Assembly: GCA_004211235.1 (NCBI GenBank)
Contig: SEEY01000277.1
Coordinates: 1 to 5,833, forward strand
DNA length: 5,833 nt
From: Rubrivivax sp.
Lineage (GTDB): Bacteria > Pseudomonadota > Gammaproteobacteria > Burkholderiales > Burkholderiaceae
Direction of reading: 5' to 3'
Shown: positions 1 through 5,833 of the stretch, piece by piece
Layout of the letters: every line of letters begins with the position of its first letter
How positions within the stretch are numbered: the stretch's first letter is position 1
Translations under genes and position numbers: made by a program
Notes under the pieces: generated by a model
What the model was told of the DNA's origin: nothing
The model's input: the letters and a program-made list of their open reading frames with translations, nothing else
The model's database searches: none

Positions 1-1082
1 GCACAGGCGCGCTGGTGCTGTCGCTGCGCCAGCCGCTGCTGCGCGGTGCGGGGCGCGATGTCGTCGAGACCGACCTGCGCGTGGCCCGCTACGAGCGCGA
101 CATCGGCGCCTGGCAGTTCCGCCAGCAGGTGCTGCGCATCGGCAGCGATGCGCTGTCGACCTACTGGCAGCTCTGGCGGGCGCGTGGCACGCAGGCGCTG
201 CGCCGCGAGGCACTGGACAACGCCCGTGAGACGGTCGACGACGTGCGCATCCGCGTCGATGGCGGCCGGCTCGCGCCTGGTGCGCTGGACGAAGCGACAG
301 CGGTGCTGTCGGCCCGGCGCGCCGAGCTGGCGCGCGGCCAGCAGGCGCTGTTCGAGGCCGAGGCCAAGGTGCGCGTGCTGCTGGATCTGCCGCCGCAGGA
401 CGGCGACTGGCCGCTGGCAGAGCCCGATCTGACGGCGCCGCCATCACCGGGGGACCTGGCCGCGCTGTCCGAGCGCCTGCCCGATGTCGAGGCCGCCTGG
501 CCGCCGCTGCGCATGGCCCTGCTCAAGCGCGAGCAGGCCGACGCCCGGTTGCGCCTGGCCTACAGCAAGAAGCTGCCGGCGCTGGACCTGCAGGCCAGCT
601 ACAGCAGCAACAGCCTGACCTATGGCCCGCTGGACGCCGCGCAGAAGGCGACGCAGGGCCGCAACCCGGACTGGACCATCGGCGTCGCGGTGGAAGTGCC
701 GCTGGGCGGCGACCGCCGCGCCCAGGCCGAGTACCGCGCCCAGCAGCTGCGCGTGGAGCAGTCGTCACTGGAGGTGCATTCGCTCCGCCAGGCCGTGGCC
801 AGCGACTACTTCAACCGCGCCGCCCAGCTGGCGGAACTGGAGCGGGAACTGACGCAGCTGCGCGAGGAGCTGGCTTCCCGCCAGCAGCTCGAAGCCGGTG
901 TGCGCGAGCAGTTCGCCAGCGGCATCGCACCGCGCGGCCGCCTGCTGCGGCTGCAGGCCGACGTGCTCGACGCCCGCATACGCCTCATCGACGGCGCCAG
1001 CCGCTGGGCCCTGGCCCGCGTGGCGCTGCAACTGGTGGACGGCAGCCTGCTCTCCGACTACGACGTGCGGATAGAACCATGA
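1..1082 (+). CDS. TolC-family outer-membrane efflux/secretion channel, 5' end cut by the window
   Basis: This is the C-terminal 359 residues of a TolC/OEP-family outer-membrane channel; the frame is open from base 3 and the true start lies upstream. The family forms trimeric outer-membrane barrels with a long periplasmic helical tunnel that docks onto HlyD-type adaptors. Visible hallmarks, counting from base 3, are the SLRQPLLRGAG stretch at residues 7-17, long Ala/Arg/Glu/Gln-rich amphipathic helices, and the second-repeat strand motif around residues 224-237 (W, IGV, VEVPLGGD) followed by another long helix pair. Family members are usually 430-500 residues, so roughly 100 residues including the signal peptide are missing. 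The stop overlaps the next gene's ATG (ATGA at 1079-1082), indicating co-translation with the adaptor. Family assignment is firm; the substrate cannot be told from this protein. Confidence 0.93.
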   Translation, partial: TGALVLSLRQPLLRGAGRDVVETDLRVARYERDIGAWQFRQQVLRIGSDALSTYWQLWRARGTQALRREALDNARETVDDVRIRVDGGRLAPGALDEATAVLSARRAELARGQQALFEAEAKVRVLLDLPPQDGDWPLAEPDLTAPPSPGDLAALSERLPDVEAAWPPLRMALLKREQADARLRLAYSKKLPALDLQASYSSNSLTYGPLDAAQKATQGRNPDWTIGVAVEVPLGGDRRAQAEYRAQQLRVEQSSLEVHSLRQAVASDYFNRAAQLAELERELTQLREELASRQQLEAGVREQFASGIAPRGRLLRLQADVLDARIRLIDGASRWALARVALQLVDGSLLSDYDVRIEP

Positions 1083-1942
1083 TTTTTCGTGTATCGACAC
1101 AGCCGCGCAGCCACCGGGACATCCCCGCTGCGCGTCTTTCTCTGTGCCTCTGTGCCTCGGCGGCCTTGTTCCTGGGCTTGGTGAGCCATGCCAGGGCGGC
1201 CGACTACGTCGGCATCGTCCACGCCCGCCACAAGCTCAGCCTGAGCCTGCCGGTGACCGGCATCGTCGCCAAGGTGGCCGTGGAGCCCGGCCAGAAGGTC
1301 GGCGCCGGCCAGGCGTTGATCCTGCTGGACGAACGCGCCCAGGCGCTGGAAGAACAGCGCCGTCGCACACAGCTGGACGACGCGAGCGAACTGCGCGCCA
1401 CCGAGGAGCGCCTCAAGGTCGTGCAACCACTGGCCGAGGACGCCCGCAAGCTCGCCGCCAGCCGCGGCGCCATCAGCCGGGAGGACGCAGCGCGAAACGA
1501 GCTGGACTTCATCGCCACGCGCGGCCGGCTGTCGCAGCTGCAGGCGCAAAAGATCCGCGAGAAGGCCGAGCTGCAGCTGGCGGAGACCGACCGTGCGCAG
1601 CGCCGCCTGGTCGCACCGGTGGCCGGCGTCGTCACGAAGATCGGCATCGACGTCGGTGAATGGGCCAAGCCGGGCGACACGCTGGTGGAGCTGGTCGATG
1701 CGTCGGTGCTGCACCTGCGCGTCAACATCCCCGCGGCGGCGGCACGCAAGCTGAAGGAGGGCCAGGGCCTGCCCGTCAGCCTCGACAGCGGTGAGACGGT
1801 GACCGGCAACGTCAGCTTCATCTCGCCGGTGACCGACGCCGCCAGCGGCCTGGCCGAGGTGCGCGTGCGCTTCAGCAACCCGGGCCGGCTGGCGCCGGGC
1901 AGCAAGGGCAGCGTCAAGCTCGATGGAGGCGCCACGAAGTGA
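1079..1942 (+). CDS. Short HlyD/MFP-type periplasmic adaptor with Sec signal peptide
   Basis: This 287-residue periplasmic adaptor is of the kind that links an inner-membrane partner to a TolC channel. A basic N-terminus is followed by a hydrophobic core at about residues 20-35 and a signal peptidase I type site, A38-R39-A40 before A41-D42, so the mature protein is probably secreted. No lipobox is convincing. Residues 55-90 form the first half of a lipoyl/biotinyl-like domain (PVTGIVAKVAVEPGQKV), 90-178 a Glu/Arg/Gln-rich helical hairpin, 178-210 the second lipoyl half (VAPVAGVVTKIGIDVGEW), and 210-287 a beta-barrel. It is short for the family and seems to stop after the barrel, without a clear membrane-proximal domain. 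The ATG overlaps the upstream stop by 4 bp and has only a weak purine tract before it. The gene ends in a GTGA overlap with the next gene. An RND-type or type I-type partner is possible, but neither is present here. Confidence 0.9.
   Translation: MIFRVSTQPRSHRDIPAARLSLCLCASAALFLGLVSHARAADYVGIVHARHKLSLSLPVTGIVAKVAVEPGQKVGAGQALILLDERAQALEEQRRRTQLDDASELRATEERLKVVQPLAEDARKLAASRGAISREDAARNELDFIATRGRLSQLQAQKIREKAELQLAETDRAQRRLVAPVAGVVTKIGIDVGEWAKPGDTLVELVDASVLHLRVNIPAAAARKLKEGQGLPVSLDSGETVTGNVSFISPVTDAASGLAEVRVRFSNPGRLAPGSKGSVKLDGGATK
1131..1160. repeat. Tandem octamer inside the signal-peptide codons
   Basis: The octamer tctgtgcc occurs twice in direct tandem at 1141-1148 and 1149-1156, preceded by a pyrimidine-rich tctttc tract. 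On the minus strand this reads as gaggcacagaggcacagag. I recall that motif from intergenic repeats of many environmental bacteria, but this is memory, not a search. Here it lies in frame and encodes part of the hydrophobic core (LSLCLCAS) of the adaptor's signal peptide. Confidence 0.55.
1925..1929 (+). promoter_or_regulatory. Shine-Dalgarno site fixing the GTG start of the GAF-HlyD gene
   Basis: GGAGG lies inside the last codons of the short adaptor gene, 9 nt before the GTG at 1939. The GTG shares four bases with the adaptor's TGA. The strong site and the overlap together support GTG as the start and suggest translational coupling. Confidence 0.75.
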
Positions 1943-3870
1943 ACGCACCCGGCCTTGTGACCGCCCTGCCCACCTTCAGCGCCCGCGAGCTGGTGCTGGC
2001 CCTGCATGCGCTGCGCGCCGCCAGCGGCCAGGCGGACTATGCGGTGCAGGTGGTCGCTGCCCTCGCGAGGTTGATGCGTGCGCAGCAGGGCTGGTGGGTC
2101 AGCGAGGCCGATGGCGGCTGGCGGCTGCTGGCCGAGGCGCATGACGAAGCCGCTGCCAGCGACCCCGCGCCCGACCCGCTGCGTGCCGACTTCGCGGCCG
2201 ACCTCGCCGGCCTCGCCCAGCGCGCCCGTACGCAGGGCTTCGCCAGCCTGCCGCAGCGCTCGGCCCAGGGTTCGACGCAATGGCTGGTGGCCGTGCGGCC
2301 GGAGCGCGCCGCGAACGACCTGTGGCTGCTGTGCCTGCCCGACCGCGAGCGGCCGCATCTGAACGAGCTGGTGCTGCGTGCGCAGCTGGTGGCCGACCTG
2401 CCGACGCCCGGCGAAGCGCCCGCTGCCGCGGTCATATCGAGCGACACACCACTGGCGACCTGGGCGCCGTTGCTGGACGCCGTGCTGTTCGCTCAAGCCC
2501 ACGACGGCTTCGAGCCGGCGACGCTGGCGCTGGTGAACGCGCTGGCCAGCACGCTCGGCGCGCAACAGGTGGCGCTCGGCTGGCGCGCGGAGGCCGGCGC
2601 GCCGCTGCGTCTGGTGGCGCTGAGCCATCGCGACAAGCTGGACCGCTACGCCCATGCCGTCGTGCTGACCGAGGGCGCGCTCGACGAAGCGCTCGACCAT
2701 GACGAAGGCGTGCGTCTCGAATCCGCCGCGCCGGCCGCGGACGCCGGCACGGCGCTGGCCGAGGTGGACGCTGCGGCCAAGCCGCTTGCGCCCGCCCTGC
2801 CCGCGCACCGGCTGCTGCAGCAGTCCCTCGGCGACGCGTGCCTCGCCTCGCTGCCACTGGCCAGCAGCGGCAGCGCGCCGCGCGCGGCCGTGCTGATGGT
2901 GTTCGACGGCGAACCGCTGCCGGCCGACCAGCTCGCCCGGCTGCGCCTGGCGCTGCGCGTGGCCCTGCCCTGGCTGGAAAGCCTGCACTGGCGCGAGCGC
3001 CCGCTCGCCCTGCGCGCGAACGACGAACTGCGTCGTCGTGCGCGCCTCTGGCTGGGGCCGCAGCATCTCGGCATGAAGCTCGGCGCCGGCCTGGGGGCCC
3101 TGGCGCTGCTGGTGGCGCTGTTCGTCGATTGGGACTACCGCGTCGGCGCCAGCGCCCAGCTGGCCACGGACAGCACGCGCATCCTGTCGGCGCAGTTCGA
3201 CGGCCGCGTCGACGAAGCCTTCGTCAGTGCCGGCCAGAACGTCAAGGAAGGCGAGGTGCTCGCCCAGCTCGACGTGCGCGACCTGCAGAACCAGGTGGCC
3301 GACGCACGCGCCGAGGTACAGCGCTACACGGCCGAGGCCGACAAGGCGCGCGCGGCCGGGGCGCTGGCCGAGTCGGAAGTGGGCAACGCGCGGACCGCCC
3401 AGGCCCAGGCGCGGCTGGCGCGCACGGTCGAGCTGATCGAGCTGGCCGCCAACCGTGCGCCTTTCGACGGCGTCGTCGTCGAGGGCGAGAAGCGCGAGCT
3501 GCAGGGCGCGCCGGTACGCAAGGGCGACAAGCTCTACCGCATCGCCCGCGTCGAGAAGCTGTACGCGACGCTGCAGGTCCCGGAGCGGGATGCGGCGCAG
3601 CTGAAGTCGGGCGCTGCTGGTGAGCTGAGCCTGATGACGCGACCCGACGAGAAGATTCCGCTGCGGGTGCTGTCGGTGATTCCGGTGGCGCAGATCAAGG
3701 GGCAGGAGGGCAACCAGTTCATGGTCCGCGCCGAGCTGCTCTCGGCGCCGGCGGACTGGTGGCGGCCGGGCATGAGCGGCAATGCGCGGGTGGATGCGGG
3801 GCCGAGGCGGATCATCTGGGTGCTGACGCATCGGGCGGTGGATCAGCTGCGGTTGTGGTTGTGGTGGTGA
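1939..3870 (+). CDS. Membrane-anchored HlyD-type adaptor with N-terminal cytosolic GAF-like region
   Basis: This 643-residue protein has three parts. Residues 1-377 are soluble. Within them, about 195-355 have a GAF-like look: an A..L...LGAQQVALGW strand, LRLVALSH, an HRLL...ACLASLPLA segment, a VLMVF strand and a closing amphipathic helix. Residues 15-150 may be a second, weaker copy. An Arg-rich stretch (RRRARLWLG) precedes a single helix at 378-396, which places the N-terminus in the cytosol. Residues 397-643 are a periplasmic adaptor: first lipoyl half at about 415-445 (DGRVDEAFVSAGQNVKEGEVL), a helical hairpin of roughly 50-55 residues, second lipoyl half at about 502-530 (RAPFDGVVVEG), then a beta-barrel. 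It ends in an unusual aromatic tail (LRLWLWW). It overlaps the upstream adaptor by 4 bp. The role as a second adaptor is well supported; the GAF call is by pattern and the ligand is unknown. Confidence 0.88.
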   Translation: MNAPGLVTALPTFSARELVLALHALRAASGQADYAVQVVAALARLMRAQQGWWVSEADGGWRLLAEAHDEAAASDPAPDPLRADFAADLAGLAQRARTQGFASLPQRSAQGSTQWLVAVRPERAANDLWLLCLPDRERPHLNELVLRAQLVADLPTPGEAPAAAVISSDTPLATWAPLLDAVLFAQAHDGFEPATLALVNALASTLGAQQVALGWRAEAGAPLRLVALSHRDKLDRYAHAVVLTEGALDEALDHDEGVRLESAAPAADAGTALAEVDAAAKPLAPALPAHRLLQQSLGDACLASLPLASSGSAPRAAVLMVFDGEPLPADQLARLRLALRVALPWLESLHWRERPLALRANDELRRRARLWLGPQHLGMKLGAGLGALALLVALFVDWDYRVGASAQLATDSTRILSAQFDGRVDEAFVSAGQNVKEGEVLAQLDVRDLQNQVADARAEVQRYTAEADKARAAGALAESEVGNARTAQAQARLARTVELIELAANRAPFDGVVVEGEKRELQGAPVRKGDKLYRIARVEKLYATLQVPERDAAQLKSGAAGELSLMTRPDEKIPLRVLSVIPVAQIKGQEGNQFMVRAELLSAPADWWRPGMSGNARVDAGPRRIIWVLTHRAVDQLRLWLWW

Positions 3871-3945
3871 TGGAATGTTTGCCTTGTGCTCTTCCATCGA
3901 CGGCTTAGTGGCCAGGCCCAGCCGGGACGTCGCCCCGGCGGGCGA

Positions 3946-3973
3946 CCTTCTTTTTGAGCGACCAAAAAGAAGG
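3946..3973. repeat. Stem-loop near the left end of the inverted element
   Basis: Perfect 10-bp arms, ccttcttttt and aaaaagaagg, flank an 8-nt loop (gagcgacc). The stem sits just inside the left terminal repeat. Neither strand has a T-run after the stem, so it is not a standard intrinsic terminator, although it could still hinder transcription or stabilise the upstream mRNA's 3' end. Confidence 0.8.
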
Positions 3974-4165
3974 CAAAAAGTCGCCCCTGCTCCGTCGCCC
4001 TCCGCTTCGCTGCGGGTCCCCTGCGATGCTCGCAGCCCGAGGCACGCGCGGAACTCACTTCGCTACGCTTCGTTCAGACAACCGCGCGAAGTCAGTCAAC
4101 GAAGCGCGCTGCGCGCGCGCCTCGGGCTGCTGCGCTTCTCGGCTCCTCCAAAGGGGTGTGAGGGA

Positions 4166-4194
4166 ACAGCCGAACAGCCAACAGCCCCACAGCC
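4166..4194. repeat. Four acagcc units at the centre of the inverted element
   Basis: The hexamer acagcc occurs at 4166, 4174, 4181 and 4189, a period of 7-8 bases. The cluster sits in the unpaired centre between the two arms of the large inverted repeat. Its function is unknown. Confidence 0.6.
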
Positions 4195-4432
4195 AAAAGT
4201 CAAGCCCGAAGTCCGTCCGGTGGACGTATTTCGTATGCCCCCTTTTAGCCACGCCGAGCAGCGGAAGGACTTGAAGCCGCGCGCGCAGCGCGCATCAAGA
4301 ACTGACTCCGCGCAGCTGTTTGACCGCAGCGTAGCGAAGGGAGTTCTGCGCGGGGCTTTAAGGCCTGAGCAGCGCAGGGAACCCCGAAGCGAAGCGCAGG
4401 GGCGGGGCGGTCAGGGGGGAGCTCTTTGGTTA

Positions 4433-4452
4433 CTTTCTGGCGGACCAGAAGG
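4433..4452. repeat. Stem-loop near the right end of the inverted element
   Basis: Arms ctttctgg and ccagaagg form 8 bp, one of them a G-U/G-T wobble, around a cgga loop, next to the right terminal repeat. It is the positional counterpart of the left-end stem-loop but differs in sequence in both stem and loop, so pairing seems to have been kept while the bases changed. No T-run follows on either strand. Confidence 0.65.
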
Positions 4453-4499
4453 TGACTCGCCCGCCGGGGCGAAATCCCGGCACGGTACTCTCCAGTCGC

Positions 4500-4518: not shown

Positions 4519-5833
4519 GTGACCCAAGGCACCCTCTCCGACAGCTGGTACCAGGTCGCCCAGACCCGCGTCTGCCTGCTGCCCACGGTCGAAGCCCAGG
4601 CCCAGCGCTACCGTGGCCAGGCCTGGGTGCTGCTGGAGGATGGCTACTCGCATCGCTTCTACCGCGTCACCCCGCAGGCCTACGAATTCCTGCGCGCCCT
4701 CGACGGCGAACGCACCGTCGACCAGGCCTGGCAAGACCTCGCCAAACGCCACCCCGAAGGCACGCCCGGCCAGGAGGAAGTGGTCAGGCTGCTGTCGCAG
4801 CTGCACCTCTCCAGCCTGCTCCATTTCAAGGAGCAGCCCCACGCCGACGCCATCTCCGAGCGCCTGCAGCGCCAGCGCTCGCGCGAGTTCATTGGCAAGC
4901 TGCTGTCCTTCATGTACTGGCGCTTCCCGCTGTTCGGGCTGGACAAGTACCTCGACAAAATCATCCCCTTCATCCACGCCTGCACCGGCCGCGTCGCCGG
5001 CCTCGTGTGGCTGGCCGCGGTGTGCTGGGGCGCCAGCACCGCCTTCGAGCACCACGGCGCGATCAGCGGCGGCAGCGAGGGCCTGCTGTCGCTGTCCAAC
5101 CTGCCCTGGCTCTACCTCGCCACCACGATGGTGAAGGTGGTGCACGAGCTGGCGCATGCCTTCGTCTGCAAGCGCTACGGCGGCCAGGTGCCCACCTTCG
5201 GCATCATGGTGCTGGTGCTCGCGCCGCTGCCCTATGTGGACGCCTCCGCGAGCTGGGGCCTGCGCAACAAGTGGCAGCGCGCCTACGTCGGCGCCGCGGG
5301 CATGCTGGCCGAGCTCTTCATGGCGTCGCTCGCCTGCGTCGTCTGGGCCGCCACGGCGGACGGCGCCGTGCACAGCATGGCCTTCAACGTGATGATCGTC
5401 GGCTCGCTGTCCAGCCTGCTGTTCAACGGCAATCCGCTGCTGCGCTACGACGCGTACTACATCCTCAGCGACCTGGTGGAGATGCCCAACCTCTACCAGA
5501 AGGCCCAGGCGCAGTGGCTGCACTACGGCGCCAAATACCTGTTCGGCGTGCGCGAGCATGTCGAGCCCGCACAGGACCGCCACGAGCGCCTGTGGTTCAC
5601 CGGCTACGGCGCGCTGGCCTTCTTCTACCGCTGGGTCGTCACGCTCGGCGTGCTGGCCTATGTGACGGACCAGTGGTTCGGCGTCGGCGTCGTCATGGTC
5701 ATCACCACCGTCATCACGATGGTGCTGATGCCGGTCACCAAGCTGTGGGCCTGGCTGCGCATGGCGTCCGGCACGCGGCGCGTGCCGGACGCCATGCGCA
5801 GCCAGGCCCACAGCTTGGTGACCGGCATCAGCA
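4519..5833 (+). CDS. PqqD-like/M50 site-2-protease-type membrane metallopeptidase, 3' end missing
   Basis: At least 438 codons are open with no stop before the window end. Residues about 20-103 look PqqD-like: an R/G-rich strand start, then VTPQAYEFLRALDGERTVDQ, then a helix ending LSQLHLSSLLHF. PqqD-type domains bind leader peptides in ribosomal peptide maturation. Membrane helices are visible at about 156-178, 190-215, 225-240, 255-279, 285-309 and 365-410. The zinc-binding HELAH motif is at H209, E210 and H213 in a membrane helix. The third-ligand motif is NPLLRYDAYY, with N305, P306 and D311, so the catalytic set is intact. Relatives, from memory, often continue into an HlyD-type adaptor domain, which would be beyond the window. 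The likely role is inner-membrane cleavage or handling of a substrate exported through the upstream adaptors and channel. Residues after about 420 come from a fold-back palindrome and are unreliable. Confidence 0.88.
   Translation, partial: MTQGTLSDSWYQVAQTRVCLLPTVEAQAQRYRGQAWVLLEDGYSHRFYRVTPQAYEFLRALDGERTVDQAWQDLAKRHPEGTPGQEEVVRLLSQLHLSSLLHFKEQPHADAISERLQRQRSREFIGKLLSFMYWRFPLFGLDKYLDKIIPFIHACTGRVAGLVWLAAVCWGASTAFEHHGAISGGSEGLLSLSNLPWLYLATTMVKVVHELAHAFVCKRYGGQVPTFGIMVLVLAPLPYVDASASWGLRNKWQRAYVGAAGMLAELFMASLACVVWAATADGAVHSMAFNVMIVGSLSSLLFNGNPLLRYDAYYILSDLVEMPNLYQKAQAQWLHYGAKYLFGVREHVEPAQDRHERLWFTGYGALAFFYRWVVTLGVLAYVTDQWFGVGVVMVITTVITMVLMPVTKLWAWLRMASGTRRVPDAMRSQAHSLVTGIS
5723..5833. repeat. 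111-nt perfect palindrome running to the window end
   Basis: Bases 5723-5777 are exactly the reverse complement of 5779-5833, with a single unpaired base at 5778; I checked all 55 pairs. It lies inside the M50 coding frame and reaches the final base, so it may extend further. A fold-back join at a contig end is the simplest reading. A true genomic palindrome this long, perfect and loop-free would be unstable and is less likely. Confidence 0.95.

Follow-up and report, generated by a model that had tools for sequence, protein, structure and literature searches.

A perfect palindrome at a presumed contig end within an M50-like gene of Rubrivivax sp. is very probably a fold-back artefact

De Bruijn graph assemblers leave terminal repeats of k-mer length, and in SPAdes and metaSPAdes the last default step is k=55. 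Inverted joins of a sequence to its own reverse complement are also described from amplification and library preparation. According to PMC1855051, on chimeras formed during MDA, more than 85% of 475 chimeras were inverted, more than 70% were primed at a complementarity of 2-21 nt, and the inverted ones are described as 'with intervening deletions'. PMC6218980 reports that artificial palindromes arise after whole-genome amplification, and PMC10908179 that library preparation yields both inverted-repeat and palindromic chimeric reads. Among the titles and abstract openings searched, no description of the k-length case was found, a scope that leaves room for one elsewhere. Here we describe a terminal palindrome in a stretch of 5833 bases from Rubrivivax sp. 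(the window, meaning throughout the whole stretch of DNA that was analysed).

The genes of the window form an operon-like run of efflux/secretion type (Table 1). The last of them encodes an M50-like membrane protein whose two Pfam matches both lie just under the curated cut-off, PF02163 at 25.6 bits (E 9.3e-06; cut-off 27.2) and PF05402, the PqqD family, at 22.2 bits (E 1.8e-4; cut-off 23.4). This gene is without about 300 C-terminal residues when measured against 16 aligned homologues of 714-726 aa, which were picked among the 120 matches listed of 2425.

Table 1. Coordinates of the genes of the window and of the parts of its terminal palindrome.
Feature	Position	Strand	Basis
Outer-membrane efflux protein, cut at window start	3-1082		PF02321
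HlyD-type adaptor	1079-1942		
Second, larger HlyD-type protein	1939-3870		
M50-like (site-2-protease-like) membrane protein gene, truncated, PqqD-like N-terminus	4519..5781	+	Pfam PF02163 and PF05402, both under cut-off
First arm, true part of the M50 gene, encoding ...LMPVTKLWAWLRMASGTR	5723..5777	+	Identity and colinear blastn, L001/L002/L003
Centre base and next three (G CGC), probably native and also fold-back	5778..5781	+	3/3 close relatives agree
False sequence, 5723-5774 in reverse complement (second arm minus its first 3 bases)	5782..5833	.	Opposite-strand matches, G001/G002/G003

The two arms of the palindrome, 5723-5777 and 5779-5833, are exact reverse complements over 55/55 positions (100% complementary) and are separated by a single G at 5778, which gives a total length of 111 nt. 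Its right edge is the final base of the window, which is presumably also the end of the contig. A search at the opposite, left end found no terminal palindrome whose arms reach 20 nt. The open frame 4519-5832 contains the palindrome and remains open up to the window's end. The next-longest perfect palindrome with a centre of 0-1 nt in the window has arms of just 7 nt, and a chance origin is negligible, at about 1e-26 by an arithmetic that raises a per-pair probability of about 0.29 (assuming about 70% G+C) to the power of 55 and multiplies it by about 5800 centres. An earlier note on this DNA, made from the letters alone, had described a perfect 111-nt palindrome with a 1-nt centre at the window edge, had placed it inside a coding gene and had excluded chance, and on each of these points our analysis agrees with it. 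The whole window gave 0 matches in Rfam at gathering thresholds.

Relatives of the M50-like protein were found in six genomes (loci L001 to L006) by scanning a single genome for each species, an approach that detects close relatives only. The three closest, at 90-92% protein identity, are L001 and L003, both Burkholderiales MAGs, and L002, from Roseateles cellulosilyticus, where the M50 relative is 718 aa long and lies within a 917-kb contig. In a genus-wide search of 20 genomes, some match was obtained in 10/20, and only G001, G002 and G003 matched across 178-182 of the 234 query bases.

The spacer at 3921-4485, which separates the M50-like gene from the second HlyD-type gene, is occupied by a repeat element of about 565 nt that is partly self-complementary and has inverted ends (GCCGGGA..TCGCCCCGGCGGGCG). 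This element recurs at many sites in G003, the genome of L003, where 51 matches were counted over both strands and thus represent a smaller number of sites. G005 gave 31 matches, which are weaker, and the remaining four genomes 1-7 each. A copy is present in the same spacer of L003, where it matches in the opposite orientation. Since the corresponding spacer measures only about 80 nt in L001 and about 125 nt in L002, where it contains a short CCGGG hairpin, the element may be a mobile, MITE-like insertion.

Where alignable, the loci L001, L002 and L003 follow the window colinearly at 84-90% DNA identity by blastn, and their colinear matches pass through the first arm, which without gaps is identical at 50/55 positions to L001 and 47/55 to L002; a codon comparison of 5723-5778 with L003 gave 49/56. 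Read forward, the second arm agreed with the same loci at only 20/55 (L001), 20/55 (L002) and 18/55 (L003) positions. Across the M50-like gene, the colinear match extends as far as 5781 in all three close relatives, that of L004 ends at 5782, and those of the more distant L005 and L006 end earlier, at 5745 and 5524. In L001, L002 and L003 the final 50-54 bases, which start at 5780-5784 and reach 5833, align to the locus of the first arm, on the opposite strand, at 89-93%. None of the orthologous loci of the three close relatives offers a separate counterpart of the second arm. Searches of the whole genomes G001, G002 and G003 gave the same opposite-strand placement and, among the matches reported (E no higher than 0.001, with 40 candidates per genome scored), no other. 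Past the centre of the palindrome, five of the six relatives stay open and coding over 100 residues, and in L003 32 codons are open across the place of the palindrome. The earlier note held that homologous genomes carrying the same palindrome would count against an artefact; the palindrome was sought in the relatives examined and is absent from them, including all three close ones.

A linear replicon whose end (telomere) is a covalently closed hairpin is to be weighed here, as sequencing through such an end would read the arm, the centre and the reversed arm, the order seen in the window. However, the end would then fall inside a gene whose 718-aa relative sits on the 917-kb R. cellulosilyticus contig, and instead of a replicon end at the same place, the close relatives have a gene that runs through it. 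A general Pfam scan of the four main genes of the window named no telomere-resolving enzyme. We regard a hairpin telomere as extremely improbable.

Short resemblances to the junction were also met elsewhere. G019 gave a match over the palindrome centre (50 query bases, 80%), which was inspected as potential evidence against the artefact and was taken as a chance match of G+C-rich sequence; an M50 relative is absent from the 3049-base locus there (tblastn gave E 3.1 at best), and the match is gapped and is no perfect palindrome. The 19-base core of the junction is present in five viral contigs, with perfect arms of 13 nt in four and 9 nt in one, and these were rejected as kin of the palindrome, being unrelated short hairpins. 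The IMG/VR contigs L007, L008, L010 and L011 have in common a perfect hairpin with 13-bp arms in a near-identical context (..GAGAGACACGGCACGCGGCGCGTGCCGTGTC..), perhaps, as a guess, the terminator of one phage group.

The codons at the switch allowed the beginning of the false sequence to be placed. In the close relatives they read (C/A)TG CGC ACG CG(C/T), as against CGG CGC GTG CCG in the window, so that 5778 and the CGC at 5779-5781 are identical to all three. By this comparison G5778 and the following CGC are probably native, and the false part therefore starts at 5782, with the switch point probably lying within, or at the edge of, 5778..5781. The turn carries a 3-nt complement, GCG at 5775-5777 and CGC at 5779-5781. 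The earlier note had called everything after 5778 false; this stands from 5782 onwards and does not for the three bases at 5779-5781, which match the close relatives. On the artefact reading, the window contains no genomic sequence in its true place after 5781.

The same break was seen in the protein, whose C-terminus the earlier note had proposed to compare with homologues. Agreement with the 16 homologues is 241-374/408 over residues 1-408 and falls to 2-5/18 over residues 421-438 in all 16, although the latter count depends somewhat on the alignment because the aligner placed a gap near the break. Residues 409-420 agree at 8-11/12 in eight of the homologues and at only 2-6/12 in the other, more distant eight, and as the distant ones thus agree weakly already before the centre, the sharp break is placed from the close homologues only. 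These data bear directly on a functional palindrome retained within the coding sequence, for which PMC6649704 offers a precedent in mitochondrial genes of nematomorphs, and which would fit a frame that remains open to the window end. Against it, the second arm occupies a place where the sequence of the 16 aligned homologues is different, and all three close relatives are without the palindrome, and we consider such a function hardly credible.

The length of the arms was examined by simulating a both-strand k-mer graph from the window's own sequence at k = 21, 33, 55, 77 and 99. The loops inserted were 1, 2, 3 or 5 nt long, and the longest self-pairs down to 1 nt. In all 20 simulated runs with a loop, the arms of the fold-back edge were exactly k, and in the five loop-free runs the entire contig turned self-complementary. 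Where the loop is not self-complementary, the fold-back edge consists of the k bases that immediately precede the turn, the loop and then the reverse complement of those bases, and it is a separate edge; k=55 with a 1-nt loop yields an edge of 111 nt, equal to the palindrome observed. As simulated arms are of exactly k, terminal arms of 55 nt fit a SPAdes-type assembler run at k=55, and the simulation suggests that the arm length was probably set by the k-mer size of the assembler. If so, the arms are uninformative on how far the fold of the original molecule extended. The main contig and the loop came out of the simulation as two adjacent edges rather than one contig, and they would have been joined through a later path step.

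The choice of G at the centre was also considered in the simulation. With fold-back reads alone, the mirror loops with G and C at the centre had a support of 91 and 90, respectively, and when native reads were added, of 95 and 90. The near-equal support means that the simulation leaves the assembler's choice between the two unexplained, and native reads were rejected as the explanation of the central G on the basis of the 95 and 90 obtained with full-reach fold-back reads. An earlier preference of 27 to 0 was biased, having used fold-back reads that reached no more than 23 nt past the centre.

The graph depends only on the fold being present in the reads, so real and artificial folds yield identical arms. 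This much is compatible with an inverted duplication that is real and recent in the strain sampled. In this case the genome would fold at 5778 and disrupt the M50-like gene of an operon of efflux/secretion type, possibly as a variant that is switchable or confined to a subpopulation, and the assembler would stop at k bases. Such a duplication would, however, remove about 300 residues from a gene that measures 714-726 residues in 16/16 aligned homologues, and it is seen in none of the three close relatives. We judge it very unlikely, if less so than a telomere or a functional palindrome.

The palindrome is thus, with high confidence, an artefact at the contig end. The fold-back proposed by the earlier note is supported, since the relatives diverge at 5782 and the second arm is the opposite strand of the first-arm DNA. 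At least one chimeric read or library molecule would have turned back on itself at about 5778-5781, the turn perhaps primed by the 3-nt complement GCG/CGC, and a de Bruijn graph assembler, presumably with k=55, would have walked through it. Past the centre, after exactly k bases, the graph would lead back into the reverse complement of the contig itself, and the contig would therefore stop there and gain a palindrome of 55+1+55. The observed palindrome does end at the last window base with an arm of 55, and the simulated edge is k+1+k. Among 239 loci (478 ends), terminal palindromes with arms of at least 20 nt were found in 0 and internal perfect palindromes with arms of at least 25 nt in 0, a survey that is weak evidence either way because many of the ends are not true contig ends.

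In practical terms, the window should be shortened by its last 52 bases and the predicted M50-like protein by its last 17 residues, and the value of the finding is one of caution only, not of biology. When a contig ends in a perfect palindrome with an arm as long as the k of the assembler, an artefact is likely, and such cases lend themselves to automatic flagging.

Compared with the described systems, the palindrome resembles the inverted chimeras of amplification and library preparation described in PMC1855051, PMC6218980 and PMC10908179 in that a sequence is followed by its own reverse complement with a short complementarity at the turn, here of 3 nt. It differs from them in appearing in what seems to be an assembled contig and in its spacing of 1 nt, the MDA chimeras having intervening deletions.

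Like the terminal repeats of k-mer length that de Bruijn graph assemblers produce, it has a repeat length equal to a common k, 55; in contrast to those direct repeats, the repeat is here inverted.
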